NCBI GenBank assembly: GCA_937973635.1
Contig: CALJJZ010000023.1
Span: forward strand, 1-49,313
Origin: an uncultured Bacillota bacterium
GTDB taxonomy: Bacteria; Bacillota; Dethiobacteria; DTU022; UBA8154
Direction of reading: 5' to 3'
Length of the DNA: 49,313 bases
Position 1 is the stretch's first letter, and every line of letters starts with the position of its first letter. Below the pieces are notes generated by a model. That model ran no database searches. It was given only the letters and a program-made list of their open reading frames with translations, and was not told where the DNA came from. Shown here piece by piece: positions 19,151 through 39,712 of this stretch. Made by a program: the position numbers and the translations under genes.

Positions 19151-19660
19151 CTATAATTCGATTTCACCCTTGCCCACGGTAGAGATGGTCACCCTGCCGC
19201 TCTCCACAAACAGGCGCATGGTCCGGCCATAGTTCCCGCCCACGTCTTCCGCCACGATGGGTATATCGAGCTCGCGCAGAGTCTGGCGCACCATGGCTAT
19301 ATTCCTTTCCCCCACGCTAATATTTGTTTTTTGAAAGGCAAAAAGCTGGCTGCCTCCAGCGATCTTCGCCTTGAGGCGGCTTTTTTTCGCGCCCATGTTT
19401 TCCATTTTATTCACCAAAAGGGGTATGGCCGTATCTGCAAATTTAGCGTGGTTCAGGGAGTTCTCCCTGTTTTTAAACTGACGGCTCTCCGCCAGCAGAA
19501 TATGGGACAAGCCGCCAACTTTGCTGAGCTCGTCGTAGAGGGAGATCCCCACGCATGAACCCAGACCCACGGTGATGATAATGCCCCTCTCTTTAAGCAC
19601 GGCCAGATCTGCGATTTTGACCTTGACAACTTCGCTTTCTATAGCCATTGACATCATCAT
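19151..19660 (-). CDS. cheD: Chemoreceptor glutamine deamidase CheD
   Basis: The 169-residue protein has the catalytic cysteine in GLGSCVGISLYD near residue 36 and the histidine in GGLSHILL near residue 53, followed by KIAGGSQLF and the C-terminal GGNYGRT. In Bacillus, CheD deamidates receptor glutamines and binds CheC, raising its phosphatase activity. The start (ATGATGATG) overlaps the cheC stop by one base, consistent with stoichiometric CheC-CheD production. Confidence 0.95.
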   Translation of the reverse strand: MMMSMAIESEVVKVKIADLAVLKERGIIITVGLGSCVGISLYDELSKVGGLSHILLAESRQFKNRENSLNHAKFADTAIPLLVNKMENMGAKKSRLKAKIAGGSQLFAFQKTNISVGERNIAMVRQTLRELDIPIVAEDVGGNYGRTMRLFVESGRVTISTVGKGEIEL

Positions 19661-20265
19661 TATGACAGCCCCAGGATTCTGAATATTTTCTCCAGCGCCC
19701 CTTCATCGGGCAAGATGAGGACACTGCCTTCAATACGGGTCTGGCTGGTATTCAAGGTCGTCTTTAAAAGGACTACTTCATCATCAATAACACGGGCCTC
19801 AGCCAGAACTGTGGAGATAATTGCCCCGGCCATATCCACGGCCACCTCGGGAGGCGTAGGCAAAAGCTGCAGGTTGGTCATCATGGAGATGGCATTAAGA
19901 TAGGAGGCCGTAAGGATATTGCCGACTTCCATGAGGACGGAGAGGCCCATCTCATCAAAATCCCCGCTGGAGCCGGGGATTAAAGCAGAAATAAGGTTGG
20001 CAGCGCTCTCCAGGGAAAGGACAAAAAGGACAGTCAGCGCCAGATCCCCTTTGCCTTCGATATAAACACCGACTACAGCGGTCTCCTCCCCCTCCAGGGA
20101 GGCGGGGATATCTTGCAGCGGGATTAAATACGCCGCCGGCACGTCCATATCTATCTTCTCGCCAGCAAGCATCTGGGAAAGGGAAGTTACGGCATTGCCT
20201 ACGCCGATATTAGCCAATTCTTTGAGTACATCCAGGCGGCTGTCGTCGATCCTCTGCTGCCCCAA
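19660..20265 (-). CDS. cheC: CheY-P phosphatase CheC
   Basis: The 201-residue stand-alone CheC carries two pseudo-symmetric active sites: DVLKELANIGVGN near residue 13 and SVLMEVGNILTAS near residue 109, both of the form [DS]-x3-E-x2-N. Both therefore look competent to dephosphorylate CheY-P. It is coupled to cheD. The same phosphatase module also occurs three times in the fliY product upstream, so this organism carries several CheY-P sinks. Confidence 0.94.
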   Translation of the reverse strand: MGQQRIDDSRLDVLKELANIGVGNAVTSLSQMLAGEKIDMDVPAAYLIPLQDIPASLEGEETAVVGVYIEGKGDLALTVLFVLSLESAANLISALIPGSSGDFDEMGLSVLMEVGNILTASYLNAISMMTNLQLLPTPPEVAVDMAGAIISTVLAEARVIDDEVVLLKTTLNTSQTRIEGSVLILPDEGALEKIFRILGLS

Positions 20266-20323: not shown

Positions 20324-20686
20324 CTAACCCGCAACTTTCTGTAGCGCCTCCACAATGCGGTCGGGCTGGAAAGGCTTAACAATAAAGTCCTTCGCCCCGG
20401 AATTCAAGGCTTCAATGACCAGGGCTTTCTGCCCCATAGCGCTGACGACGACAATCTTGGCGTTGGGATCCCGCTGCATGATCGTTTTAATGGCCGTAAT
20501 GCCGTCCATATTGGGCATGGTAATATCCATGGTTACCAGGTCGGGCTTGATGGCTTCATACTTGTCCACAGCCTGCTGGCCGTCCTCTGCTTCCCCTGCT
20601 ACCTCAAAGCCGTTTTTCTCCAGCACGTTGCGCAGGGTCATACGCATAAACGCCGTATCATCAGTGATAAGAACCTTTTTTCCCAA
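20324..20686 (-). CDS. cheY: Chemotaxis response regulator CheY
   Basis: A single 120-residue receiver domain: acidic pocket ITDDTAFMR, phosphoacceptor D54 in VTMDITMPNMDG, the switch threonine/serine in VVVSAMGQ, and K in FIVKPFQPDR. CheA phosphorylates it; CheY-P binds the motor switch. The start overlaps the cheA 3' end by 26 bases in another frame. A 58-bp gap to cheC contains no promoter that I can recognise. Confidence 0.96.
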   Translation of the reverse strand: MGKKVLITDDTAFMRMTLRNVLEKNGFEVAGEAEDGQQAVDKYEAIKPDLVTMDITMPNMDGITAIKTIMQRDPNAKIVVVSAMGQKALVIEALNSGAKDFIVKPFQPDRIVEALQKVAG

Positions 20687-23393: not shown

Positions 23394-25850
23394 TTAAGGC
23401 TTTACCATGTCAATTATTTTAAAACCAAACTGCCCGTTAACCAGAACCACCTCCCCTTTGGCCACGAGGAGGTCGTTGGCGTAGACGTCAACGGGCTCCC
23501 CCAGGTAACGATCAAGGGCAATAACTTCACCGGGGTAGATGGAAAATATTCTTTTTAAGGGCAGCCGCGTTTTGCCCAGCAGCACATAGATATGGACAGG
23601 GATATCCCGGATCATGTCAATACGGGAATAATCCCGCTCCTGCCAGATCCTGGCCGGGGTTTTTGCTTCAGCTTCCTCCGGCGCCGGGGCCTCAGCGGCA
23701 AGGGCGCGGGTAAACGCCTCCAGATCGGCAAACATCCCCGCCTCGTCTTCGCCCTCTTTCCCTTCCTTCTCTGGGCCGCTGCCTTCTTCGGCCAAAACGC
23801 CCGCGGGGCCGGGCTGTTCCCGAAACTGTTCCAACCCTTCGGCCACCAAATCTTCGAGCAGGCCCGCTTCAGCTTCTCCGCCCTGGCCGGCCATGCCGAC
23901 ACCGGCCAGGAGCTGGCCGGAGATCTCCCGGGCAAAATCCAGGGGTACAAGCTGCAGGAGCTTGCTGTCCAGGAGGTCTTCCACCTCTATGCGAAAGGCA
24001 ATCTGGACTACGGGGGTATGATCCTCCATCTCGGCAAGGTCGAATTTTTCCGTGTGAAGGTTCTTCCTCTCCACAAGGGGAGGAGATATATCGATGAGGC
24101 GGTGGAACATATCGGACATGCTCGTAGCCGTGGCGCCCATCATCTGGTTCATCGCCTCGCTGATCCCCGAGATCTCCAGCTCGCCCAGCTCCGGGGGGCG
24201 TTCCGGCGGCTCCATGCCCAGCATCAGGCCCACAATGGCCAGGGCGTCGTCTTCGCTTAAAATCAGAATATTATGCCCGGCAAGCCCTTCTATATAATTG
24301 ACGGTCACCACCAGGCAGGGGGTGGGATAATTGGCCCGGACCTCGCCCATGGTGGTCAGGGTCACATGGGGCGTGGTAATCTGGACTCTCCTGTTCAATA
24401 TTTTGGAGAGGGCCGTGGCCGAGGAGCCAAGGGAGATATTGCCCACCTCCGCCAGGGCGTCTTTCTGCAGCGCGCTCAGGGTCTCTGTCCCTTCCGCCGG
24501 GGCCCCTGCCTTCTCCGCCGGCCTATCTCCTCCCTCTGCCAAAAGGGCTTCCTGCTCTTTGCGCGGGGTCCGCGCCGCAGCCGCTTCCTTTTCCCCGTCG
24601 ACCAGGCCCTGCAGGAGCTGAGAGGTTATTTTGCGGGCAAAGGAAACGGGCATAATCTGCCAGAACTGGCTCTGTAAAAGATCGCCGATCTCCAGGCTGA
24701 AGGCTACCTGCAGCACAGGCTCAGCGCCGGCCATAACGCCCTCTGCCTGGGTTTGCTGCTGCAGGTTGCTGTATGCTACCCGGGGGGGGGTAATATCCGT
24801 ATCACGGCCCAAAAAGACAGAGAGGGCGGTGGCGGCTGAACCCATCATCTGGTTCATCGCCTCGCTGACTGCGGAAAGCTCCATCTCCCCGATGGGCGCC
24901 GGATTTTCCGGCGGCAGGCCCATCATTAAAGCGGCAATGACCGCCGCGTCGTTCTGGTTGAGGATAAAAATATTCTCCCCTTCCAGCCCCTTGGTATAAT
25001 TTACCCGGGTGATGATGCTTTCCCCCGGAAACTGCTCCCACAGGCGATCCACGGTTTTAAGAAAAAAGCGGGGAGCGGTAATCTGGACACGCTGGTTGAG
25101 CAGGTGCGACAGGGCTGTAGAAGACGAACCAAGGGAAATAGTGCCGACTTCGGCCAGGGTATCCAGCTCCAGGGGAGAAAAGAGCTCCTCCAGTCCGGGC
25201 TCCGGTAAAGCCTCTGCTTCCCCCTGCCCTTCTCCGTCGCCTGCGGCCTCTGCCCCGGGCGGCAGGAGGGGAGCAATGACCTCCCGCATTAAAGTATGGG
25301 GAACCAACTGAAAGAAATCCAGCTCGCCAACTTCTTCCACTTCCAAGAGGTAATGTATGACCACCCAGTTTTCCGCAGCCGCCGGCTGCTCTTCCTCCCC
25401 TATCCCCTCCCCCAGGGCAAGATAAGCAATTTGCGGGGCATCAATGGCGATCTCGCTGCCTAAAAAAGCGGCAAGGGAGGTGGTATATACGCCCATGATC
25501 ATCCCCACCGCTTCGCTCAGGGCGCTGCTTTCCATCTCCGTAAGCTCTTCGGGAGGGCTTGGCGGAGCTTCTTTGCCCAGCAGCAGGGCTGCCAGGGAGG
25601 CTGCGCTTTTACCGGGGAAAAAAAGGCACTGCTCCCCCGCCAACCCTTTTAAAAAAAGGATACGGGCAAAGAGCCCTTTTTCTGCCATCCCGCTTAAACT
25701 TTCCCGCCGTTGTAGCTCTACCTCGGGCGGCCTGGCGCGGATGGCACCCTGAATAAAAACGGCCAGGGCCTGAGGCACCGCGTTGATGGCAGCATTGGCA
25801 ATCTCCAGCATTATTTCTTTTTCCAGAGGTTTCAGGGACAATTCGGCCAT
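23394..25850 (-). CDS. fliY: FliY-type motor switch phosphatase with three tandem CheC modules
   Basis: At 818 residues this is about twice the usual FliY. Modules of CheC type lie at about 8-195, 224-415 and 457-650, and a FliN/SpoA domain at about 745-815 ends the protein. Phosphatase half-sites of the form [DS]-x3-E-x2-N are intact in module 3 (D464/E468/N471 and S561/E565/N568) and in the second half of module 2. Module 2 first half has T for N, module 1 first half has E for D/S, and its second half has G for N. Modules 2 and 3 are very alike, suggesting internal duplication. The N-terminal CheY-P-binding peptide usual in FliY is absent. Acidic linkers join the parts. It probably sits in the C-ring and dephosphorylates CheY-P. 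Confidence 0.9.
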   Translation of the reverse strand: MAELSLKPLEKEIMLEIANAAINAVPQALAVFIQGAIRARPPEVELQRRESLSGMAEKGLFARILFLKGLAGEQCLFFPGKSAASLAALLLGKEAPPSPPEELTEMESSALSEAVGMIMGVYTTSLAAFLGSEIAIDAPQIAYLALGEGIGEEEQPAAAENWVVIHYLLEVEEVGELDFFQLVPHTLMREVIAPLLPPGAEAAGDGEGQGEAEALPEPGLEELFSPLELDTLAEVGTISLGSSSTALSHLLNQRVQITAPRFFLKTVDRLWEQFPGESIITRVNYTKGLEGENIFILNQNDAAVIAALMMGLPPENPAPIGEMELSAVSEAMNQMMGSAATALSVFLGRDTDITPPRVAYSNLQQQTQAEGVMAGAEPVLQVAFSLEIGDLLQSQFWQIMPVSFARKITSQLLQGLVDGEKEAAAARTPRKEQEALLAEGGDRPAEKAGAPAEGTETLSALQKDALAEVGNISLGSSATALSKILNRRVQITTPHVTLTTMGEVRANYPTPCLVVTVNYIEGLAGHNILILSEDDALAIVGLMLGMEPPERPPELGELEISGISEAMNQMMGATATSMSDMFHRLIDISPPLVERKNLHTEKFDLAEMEDHTPVVQIAFRIEVEDLLDSKLLQLVPLDFAREISGQLLAGVGMAGQGGEAEAGLLEDLVAEGLEQFREQPGPAGVLAEEGSGPEKEGKEGEDEAGMFADLEAFTRALAAEAPAPEEAEAKTPARIWQERDYSRIDMIRDIPVHIYVLLGKTRLPLKRIFSIYPGEVIALDRYLGEPVDVYANDLLVAKGEVVLVNGQFGFKIIDMVKP

Positions 25851-26018: not shown

Positions 26019-26417
26019 TTATCTCAGGCGCTTTATCCTCTCCACGGGAGAGAAGATATGGGTGATCTTAATGCCAAAGTTTTCTTCCACAACGATCACT
26101 TCGCCCCGGGCAATAAGTTTCCCGTTAATAAAAACATCCACAGGATCGCTGATGACGCGGTTTAACTCCACCACTTTGCCGGGGCCGATCTCCATTACTT
26201 CTTCCAGGCTTTTTACCACCTCTCCCAGGCGGACAGAAAGCCGCAGCGGAAAATCCAGGATCAGATCCAAGTTACGCATTTTTTCGCCGCTGGGGACAGC
26301 GGCGGCACCGGCAGCAGTTTCCCCGGCGGGCTGCGTTTGTCCTTCCCCGGAAGACGGCGCGCTGCCGGCCCCAAGGAGGGCATCTATCTCCTCCTGGGTC
26401 AGGAAGTTATCAGGCAC
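26019..26417 (-). CDS. fliN: Flagellar motor switch protein FliN
   Basis: The 132-residue protein has an N-terminal FLTQEEIDALLGAG peptide, like the CheY-P-binding peptide of FliM/FliY, a short alanine-rich linker and a C-terminal SpoA domain (about 50-125) with VVELNRVISDPVDVFINGKL. It should form the lower C-ring and bind FliH. The start is a GTG overlapping the fliM stop by 8 bases. It is one of three FliN-type proteins in the window. Confidence 0.9.
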   Translation of the reverse strand: MPDNFLTQEEIDALLGAGSAPSSGEGQTQPAGETAAGAAAVPSGEKMRNLDLILDFPLRLSVRLGEVVKSLEEVMEIGPGKVVELNRVISDPVDVFINGKLIARGEVIVVEENFGIKITHIFSPVERIKRLR

Positions 26418-27405
26418 TCTCTTCCACCTCTTCCTCCAGGTGCCAGCCTTTAATCTGGACCGCTACATTCTGGCCGAAGGCACCGGGTTGAGCTTTAAAC
26501 AACAGCTCGCCCTCCACGAGAATATCCAGGTCTTCCCCCTCCATCCGTTGCAGGGGAATAATATCTCCTTTGGAGAAACTAAGGAAATCGTCCAGGGTTA
26601 CCGTTGTTTTGCCCAAGATGACATTGACGTCCACTTCCACCTGTTCCAGCTGTTTTAGTAAACGCTGCTCGTGCAGGCGCGTCAGGTCCTGGTGAGTCTG
26701 TTTGAACCAGAACTGGGAGGTAAGCTTGGGCATAATCTTCTCCAGGGTGATAAAAGGGAAGCAGAGGTTGAGCATGCCCTGGTTCCCCTTGATTTGCGTG
26801 GTAAAGGTAAGCAGCGCTACCGTTTCAGTAGAGGCAAACATCTGGTTGAACTGGGGGTTTGTCTCCATATTCTCCACGCGCGGCGTTAAGGACGTAATAT
26901 CTTCCCAGACGTAACGCAGGTTGTTTAATAATTTGTCGTTGATCTGGCGCATTACCGTCAGCTCAATATCGGTCAGCTCCCTGGTATCCTTGGGGATCTC
27001 GCCGACGCCGCCAAATACCAGGTCGATGAGGGGAAAGACAAAAGAGGGGTTGGTCTCCAGCATGGCGCTGCCCAGCTCAGGGTGCATATTAAATACCGTC
27101 ACCAGGGTGGGGATGGGCAAGGAAAAAATAAACTCCTCGTAGGTTACCTGGCTGACGGAGACCAGCTGGATCTGCACCGGCACACGCAGGTAAGCAGCAA
27201 GAAAGTTCCCCAGCATCCGCGCATAGTTATCGTGGATAACCTGGAGCGTGCGGATCTGCTCTTTAGAGAATTTACTGGGACGGCGAAAATCATAACTGCT
27301 GTGGTCTTTTTTCTCTTCTTCCTTGGCTACGGCCTTGACGGAGCCGGAACTCAGGGCGCTGATCAGCGAATCGATCTCAGATTGGGACAAAATATCTTTG
27401 GCCAT
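26410..27405 (-). CDS. fliM: Flagellar motor switch protein FliM
   Basis: The 331-residue protein has the N-terminal CheY-P-binding peptide ILSQSEIDSLISAL (about residues 5-18), the CheC-like middle domain (about 50-230) with the FliG-contacting VFGGVGEIPKDTRELTDIE near residue 128, and a C-terminal SpoA domain (about 250-320). It links FliG to FliN/FliY and carries the switching signal. Here it is coupled to fliN and lies downstream of the flhOP genes, not between fliL and fliO as in Bacillus. Confidence 0.96.
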   Translation of the reverse strand: MAKDILSQSEIDSLISALSSGSVKAVAKEEEKKDHSSYDFRRPSKFSKEQIRTLQVIHDNYARMLGNFLAAYLRVPVQIQLVSVSQVTYEEFIFSLPIPTLVTVFNMHPELGSAMLETNPSFVFPLIDLVFGGVGEIPKDTRELTDIELTVMRQINDKLLNNLRYVWEDITSLTPRVENMETNPQFNQMFASTETVALLTFTTQIKGNQGMLNLCFPFITLEKIMPKLTSQFWFKQTHQDLTRLHEQRLLKQLEQVEVDVNVILGKTTVTLDDFLSFSKGDIIPLQRMEGEDLDILVEGELLFKAQPGAFGQNVAVQIKGWHLEEEVEESA

Positions 27406-39187: not shown

Positions 39188-39712
39188 CTACTCTTCTTCC
39201 AGCCCGGCGGCCTGCCCCGGCCTCCCCTTTTCCTCCTCTTTTTCCTCCTTTGCCTTTTCTTTACCGACAGCCGTAATACGCAGCCCGAAACGGTCGTTGA
39301 CCACCACGATCTCCGCCTGCCCCAGGTACTGGTCGTTTACCAGGACGGTGGCGCTTTCCCCGGCCATCTTATCCAGCTTAACAATGGATCCTTCTTCCAG
39401 CTCCAGCAGATCCCTGACGGTCAGCTCCGCCTTTCCTAGCTCGCCGCTGAGGATAAGGGGGATGTTATAAAATATTTTACGCTTCGGCCGCTCCAGCGAC
39501 GTTCTGGGCAGGGGCTTAAGCTGGGGAAATTCCACCCGCTGCACCAGGGGCTTTTGCATCTTCCCGGCCTGCTCCGCAACGCTTTTGCCGGGGCTGTCCT
39601 GAGCAGAAGGCACAGGTGTCGCCGCTCCTGACCCGTTAGCCTTTTTTGTGCTGTCCCCGGACATATTTTTCAGCATGGCATTAATTTCTTCCTGGCTAAG
39701 TGAATTACCCAA
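39188..39712 (-). CDS. Additional FliN-type SpoA-domain protein
   Basis: The 174-residue protein has an N-terminal SLSQEEINAMLKNMSG peptide, like the CheY-P-binding peptide of FliM and FliY, a disordered linker (about 20-75), a SpoA domain (about 85-150; ELEEGSIVKLDKMAGESATV and VVVNDRFGLRITAV) and a glutamate/lysine-rich tail. It occupies the site between fliL and fliO where Bacillus has fliM-fliY. The true fliM, fliN and fliY lie 12-16 kb away downstream. It may be an alternative C-ring subunit or a remnant of an earlier switch set. Confidence 0.85.
   Translation of the reverse strand: MGNSLSQEEINAMLKNMSGDSTKKANGSGAATPVPSAQDSPGKSVAEQAGKMQKPLVQRVEFPQLKPLPRTSLERPKRKIFYNIPLILSGELGKAELTVRDLLELEEGSIVKLDKMAGESATVLVNDQYLGQAEIVVVNDRFGLRITAVGKEKAKEEKEEEKGRPGQAAGLEEE

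Follow-up and report, generated by a model that had tools for sequence, protein, structure and literature searches.

The window analyzed here, a whole stretch of 49,313 nucleotides from an uncultured Bacillota bacterium, carries on its minus strand a fliY reading frame that begins with ATG and continues unbroken for 818 codons (23394–25850), as in the original prediction, which left the strand unstated. Descriptions of FliY give this flagellar switch phosphatase a single module. The protein encoded here has three CheC modules, then an extended flexible linker and finally a single SpoA/FliN domain. The gene lies downstream of fliM and fliN1 and upstream of cheW, cheA, cheC, cheY, cheD, cheB and cheR (the che genes other than cheC were named by eye). 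Features of the locus, all assigned by the evidence in brackets where given, are:

23394..25850, minus strand: fliY, three CheC modules plus SpoA, 818 aa (ORF; Pfam and NCBIfam profiles)
25236..25829, minus strand: CheC module 1, residues 8–205, most diverged, both half-sites altered (NF005995; single-FliY profile; AF2 plus Foldseek to 4hyn)
25725..25817, minus strand: half-site 1a, E12/E16/N19/P42, E-x3-E-x2-N, proline +23 (alignment; missed by Pfam CheC)
25434..25526, minus strand: half-site 1b, S109/E113/G116/P139, S-x3-E-x2-G, proline +23 (Pfam and alignment)
24585..25175, minus strand: CheC module 2, residues 226–422, first half-site N to T, second canonical
25071..25163, minus strand: half-site 2a, D230/E234/T237/P260, D-x3-E-x2-T, proline +23 (Pfam and alignment)
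24783..24875, minus strand: half-site 2b, S326/E330/N333/P356, canonical S-x3-E-x2-N (Pfam and alignment)
23895..24473, minus strand: CheC module 3, residues 460–652, two canonical half-sites; clusters with modules from single-module FliYs of the family
24369..24461, minus strand: half-site 3a, D464/E468/N471/P494, canonical D-x3-E-x2-N (Pfam and alignment)
24078..24170, minus strand: half-site 3b, S561/E565/N568/P591, canonical S-x3-E-x2-N (Pfam and alignment)
23625..23894, minus strand: linker from module 3 to SpoA, predicted to be disordered (pLDDT <50, residues 653–747)
23397..23624, minus strand: SpoA/FliN C-terminal domain, residues 743–818 (PF01052; match to FliN structures)
26019..26417, minus strand: fliN1, 132 aa, CheY-P peptide QEEIDALL plus SpoA, directly upstream of fliY
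26410..27405, minus strand: fliM, N-terminal SQSEIDSL peptide (TIGR01397, 302 bits, above cut-off)
39188..39712, minus strand: fliN2, a second fliN, with a SQEEINAML-type peptide (PF01052, E = 5.2e-20; ORF)
19660..20265, minus strand: free-standing CheC, both half-sites intact by eye (profile searches; ORF)
20324..20686, minus strand: cheY, encoding the presumed substrate (translation, identified by eye)

The window thus encodes four SpoA proteins, three of which carry a CheY-P-type peptide. The fliN2 gene sits between fliL and fliO, the usual place of fliM-fliY. Since the free-standing CheC keeps both half-sites, FliY is not alone: the cell has one or more further complete candidates for a CheY-P phosphatase. 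Elsewhere in the genome, a 169-aa frame contains a further CheC/CheX-like half-site (G000:C71:19883-19990; L005) and is probably a free-standing CheX. Within fliY itself, an ATG at residue 706, with a weak purine stretch upstream, is a candidate internal start for a FliN-like fragment.

Three CheC modules in one FliY

Profile searches identified a single SpoA domain (PF01052, residues 746–816; whole-protein E = 7.2e-18) and five of the six CheC half-sites (PF04509); a genome-wide search likewise put five half-sites exactly where expected. The whole protein scores 611 bits against the FliY profile NF005995 (cut-off 218), with module 3 plus SpoA (residues 431–817) aligning to positions 7–371 of 376. 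Modules 2 and 3 are 47% identical and, judged by their sequences, are clear duplicates.

Module 1 is harder to place. Against Pfam CheC it reaches E = 6.5e-4 and 20.0 bits, where the gathering score is 22 bits; its second half-site scored 22.8 bits in the genome-wide search. The FliY profile NF005995 matches residues 5–197 with 77.9 bits (E = 9.6e-22), and a profile built from single-module FliYs only gives 97 bits, compared to no more than 3.8 bits for shuffled sequences. When folded by AlphaFold with CheC modules as the alignment, module 1 yielded a model (pLDDT 90.9, pTM 0.87) whose closest solved structure is T. maritima FliY (TM 0.81), with CheC and FliM next; FliM middle domains gave TM values up to 0.76 (query length). 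Because the CheC alignment biases AlphaFold towards CheC, the profile scores serve as the independent evidence. In the full-length AF2 model, modules 2 and 3 were confident, module 1 was not and the linkers were disordered; the AF2 alignments were shallow, and the full-length one held few relatives of module 1. All three modules score best with FliY profiles, not CheC. Modules 2 and 3 show weak profile similarity to FliM, and no FliM profile was listed for module 1 in the NCBIfam search. These data uphold the original prediction of three CheC-like modules ahead of one SpoA/FliN domain: each module matches by profile, and the CheC fold is found within the first 650 residues by profiles and AlphaFold alike.

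Half-site residues were assigned by alignment. Three of the six half-sites are canonical (2b, 3a and 3b), the other three are each altered at one position, and the proline is present in all six, in agreement with the earlier reading that T, G or E occupies key positions in the remainder. The tally of intact half-sites varies among relatives: five in G020 and G017 (the first of module 1 and both of modules 2 and 3), four in G011, three in G009 and two in the genus-mates G002, G003 and G004.

As in other FliYs, a CheC-type module lies N-terminal to SpoA on a single chain, and [DS]-x3-E-x2-N half-sites are present (two within module 3 and a single one in module 2). Two further features are usual for FliY, though not strictly defining. 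One is a single CheC module; because there are three here, we regard the protein as a variant of FliY. The other is an N-terminal EIDALL peptide, which was not found before module 1. FliY of the Bacillus/Thermotoga type (NF005995/PRK08119; 4HYN) likewise combines paired CheC half-sites with a SpoA domain behind them, but it has one CheC module rather than three, bears an N-terminal CheY-P peptide and is ∼380–400 aa long rather than 818. FliN shares the SpoA domain that docks in the C-ring but has no CheC module, and the window genome encodes two FliNs in addition to FliY. FliM is alike in plan (peptide, CheC fold, SpoA), but its one CheC-fold domain is non-catalytic, a separate fliM adjoins in the window, and the FliM profile TIGR01397 gives FliY only 52.8 bits (cut-off 219.6). 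Free-standing CheC and CheX have the same fold and half-site motif as the window modules but lack a SpoA domain.

Distribution and history of multi-module FliY

We used the whole protein to search relatives, the order, the class and a phylum sample (398 genomes). FliY was found at E values up to 1e-30 in 50 of 98 genomes of the class, and 29 of these 50 have two or more modules (24 by domain scan and five more by match pattern and frame length). Three modules occur in three genomes only: the window genome, G020 (816 aa) and G017 (805 aa), the last two belonging to genus g8 and hence not to the window genus, g1. In the phylum sample, the usual FliY has one module and 350–440 aa, in line with the single module and about 380 residues originally stated. 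Two-module FliY is nearly absent from that sample, and G120, in which the second module is worn, is the only case confirmed outside the class. A scan of assembly contigs returned at least 80 FliYs; among the matches listed, none has three modules and five have two (G096, G089, G087, G073 and the MAG UBA7523, L101, whose class is not established). Four other candidates with open frames of ∼700–740 aa (G349, G461, G380 and G321) were rejected, as each has one CheC module in a 369–377 aa ORF. The FliY of G087 (L096) contains two closely alike CheC modules, sisters in the tree (100/98), pointing to recent duplication or gene conversion.

A two-module model, NF005275/PRK06782.1 (516 positions), which we take to stem from the Bacillus cereus group, matches L101, G078, G089 and G076 end to end. 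Given these alignments, CheC-CheC-SpoA is already a catalogued kind of FliY, and our literature search found no paper that discusses the architecture. The window FliY, with three modules, scores 511.8 bits, below the 681-bit cut-off of this model, and no protein in the 398 genomes searched exceeded that cut-off. In B. cereus, Bc1629, numbered next to cheA, has been called CheC/FliN (PMC12848376). Three modules are rare, but FliYs with two are widespread in the class and already have a profile. The window FliY is a genuine and rare three-module example of a multi-module variant that recurs and is largely confined to this class, and not a new kind of system.

In a tree of 71 CheC modules, module 1 of both genera (g1 and g8) forms one clade (100/99), module 2 of g1, g8 and G009 forms another (95/81), and module 3 falls among modules from the family's single-module FliYs (98/97). 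The two-module FliYs of family f3 each have their pair of modules clustered together (99/96), and the tree places these proteins as the product of a separate duplication. A single origin of all extra modules was rejected by AU tests, which exclude the grouping of f1 module 2 with f3 module 1 (P = 4e-6), and a common clade of the first modules of f3, f6 and f8 was likewise rejected (P = 3e-5), the groups having been defined post hoc from the initial tree, with seven modules on long branches excluded. By this phylogenetic evidence, duplications arose more than once.

A second tree, based on FliM, FliN1, module 3 and SpoA, joins the window genome and G004 as a pair (97/96) whose sister group is G002 and G003. 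Module 2 is missing from G004 and from G002/G003, all of the window genus, and module 1 is missing from G011, which lies inside g8. Given this placement, and because module 2 of the window is orthologous to that of g8, module 2 was probably lost at least twice in the window genus. The four FliYs examined from the genus all contain module 1. Module 3 and SpoA are constant across the family's multi-module FliYs, with module 1 or 2 variably present. On the evidence of these trees, modules have undergone gain as well as loss. Three modules were probably already present in the common ancestor of g1 and g8; we confine this claim to the two genera and do not extend it to the family ancestor, because the order of the family's deepest branches is not settled by the tree.

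The CheY-P peptide was said to have been lost from this FliY and to be present on the neighboring FliN. Both observations hold, but the loss is not tied to this protein. The EIDALL peptide is absent from every FliY examined in the class, whether of one, two or three modules, and many class genomes have a separate peptide-bearing FliN just upstream of fliY. Outside the class, nearly all FliYs are peptide-bearing and single-module, and the two-module outlier G120 lacks the peptide. One caveat here is that, beyond the class, the automatic pattern used to score the peptide was overly stringent, such that the 16 rows scored as single-module without peptide include clear variants (QQEIDALL, QEEISALL). 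A Fisher test on these scores, which moreover takes no account of shared ancestry, was for this reason set aside. All 26 multi-module FliYs examined are without peptide, and all peptide-bearing FliYs are single-module. Because two lineages at best are involved, a link between duplication and peptide loss is a hypothesis rather than a test. Tentatively, the peptide and the structural role of SpoA might have moved to FliN, freeing FliY for repeated module gain, partial site loss and deletion, in which case the number of active CheY-P sites per rotor subunit (about two to five) would make the lifetime of the motor signal evolvable.

A putative tethered phosphatase array at the C-ring

We favor, with a probability of roughly 0.6, a reading in which the window FliY is a C-ring-docked, tethered array of CheY-P phosphatase modules whose copy number tunes signal removal. 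Judging from the adjacent fliM and fliN genes, the SpoA domain would dock FliY in the C-ring next to FliM and both FliNs, with the long flexible linkers keeping a series of CheC modules at the point where CheY-P reaches the motor. Module 3, with two intact half-sites, would be the main phosphatase and module 2, with one, a partial phosphatase; module 1 would be non-catalytic, kept for binding or structure. How many modules there are, and how many half-sites remain intact (three in the window FliY, up to five in relatives and two in an ordinary FliY), would then set the speed of signal removal at the motor. In short, FliY may be a motor-bound phosphatase tuned by module copy number. In B. subtilis, FliY regulates the phosphorylation state of CheY (PMC12848376) and can replace FliN in Salmonella (PMC6946799). 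T. maritima FliY reportedly bound activated CheY no better than inactive CheY (PMC7355467), and hence affinity for CheY-P should not be assumed for a FliY without the peptide.

Modules 1 and 2 could instead be passengers, decaying tandem duplicates that are merely tolerated while module 3 alone works. Module 2 of the window has lost one half-site asparagine and sits on a long branch (0.53, versus 0.12–0.13 in G020 and G017 of g8), a larger gap than for module 3 (0.17 versus 0.04–0.13), consistent with relaxed constraint on this module after the asparagine loss. Genus-mates without module 2 and single-module members of the family show that the extra modules are dispensable, and the absence of module 1 from G011 fits the same picture. 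On the other hand, module 2 of g8 keeps both half-sites, the frame is intact across three modules in three genomes, and module 1 persists throughout the genus FliYs examined. Moreover, helix 2 of module 1, in which the catalytic asparagine is replaced by glycine, shows 82% identity across four species of the genus, compared to 53% elsewhere in the module; in g8 it is the intact helix 1 that is more conserved (83% versus 53%), although these sets are small (n = 4 and n = 2, respectively). Conservation of the altered helix speaks for a kept non-catalytic role of module 1. We consider it rather doubtful that modules 1 and 2 are passengers. The proposal that duplication gave a graded set of active and decayed sites holds up in part: graded loss of sites is seen, but decay is only part of the story, given the conserved altered helix of module 1.

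In a second alternative, module 1 would be a non-catalytic docking module for CheY-P (or for FliG, FliM or CheD) that replaces the lost EIDALL peptide, with the extra modules acting mainly to capture CheY-P at the ring. By analogy to CheX-CheY contacts, a half-site with glutamate kept and asparagine lost could leave binding without hydrolysis, and module 1 keeps both half-site glutamates, has lost one asparagine, retains conserved helices and belongs to a FliY without peptide. However, FliN1, encoded one gene away, carries the peptide, which makes a substitute unnecessary; the family's single-module FliYs have neither the peptide nor module 1; and in module 1 of G004 the first glutamate is replaced by K. 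We judge this alternative unlikely.

It is less likely still that the extra modules are structural, forming a further belt or a wider rim on the C-ring, on the model of the middle domain of FliM, a CheC fold that lacks an active site. Module 1 does fit FliM middle domains by fold and has no complete half-site, but its sequence is nearer FliY than FliM, the linkers are predicted to be disordered, and copy number varies among species of one genus, which would be odd for a ring-forming part. Nor did we see anything in favor of the taller ring subunit initially suggested, the predicted linkers being flexible. A mis-assembled or chimeric contig joining separate modules can be set aside: the genome is a draft of 98 contigs, but orthologous modules occur in the same order in the independent three-module proteins of G020 and G017, and modules 2 and 3, at their level of identity, are far from an assembly repeat.

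The multi-module FliYs of this class offer a natural series (about two, three, four or five intact half-sites per subunit) for asking whether removal of CheY-P at the motor limits switching, a question usually addressed by mutating one protein. Non-catalytic CheC modules with conserved active-site helices are also a possible case of CheY-P binding without hydrolysis.

In the two-module FliYs of G073 (L098), G072 (L099) and G120 (L086), the module adjoining SpoA is decayed and the N-terminal module is intact, the reverse of the arrangement in the window FliY; hence, position does not fix which module is active.
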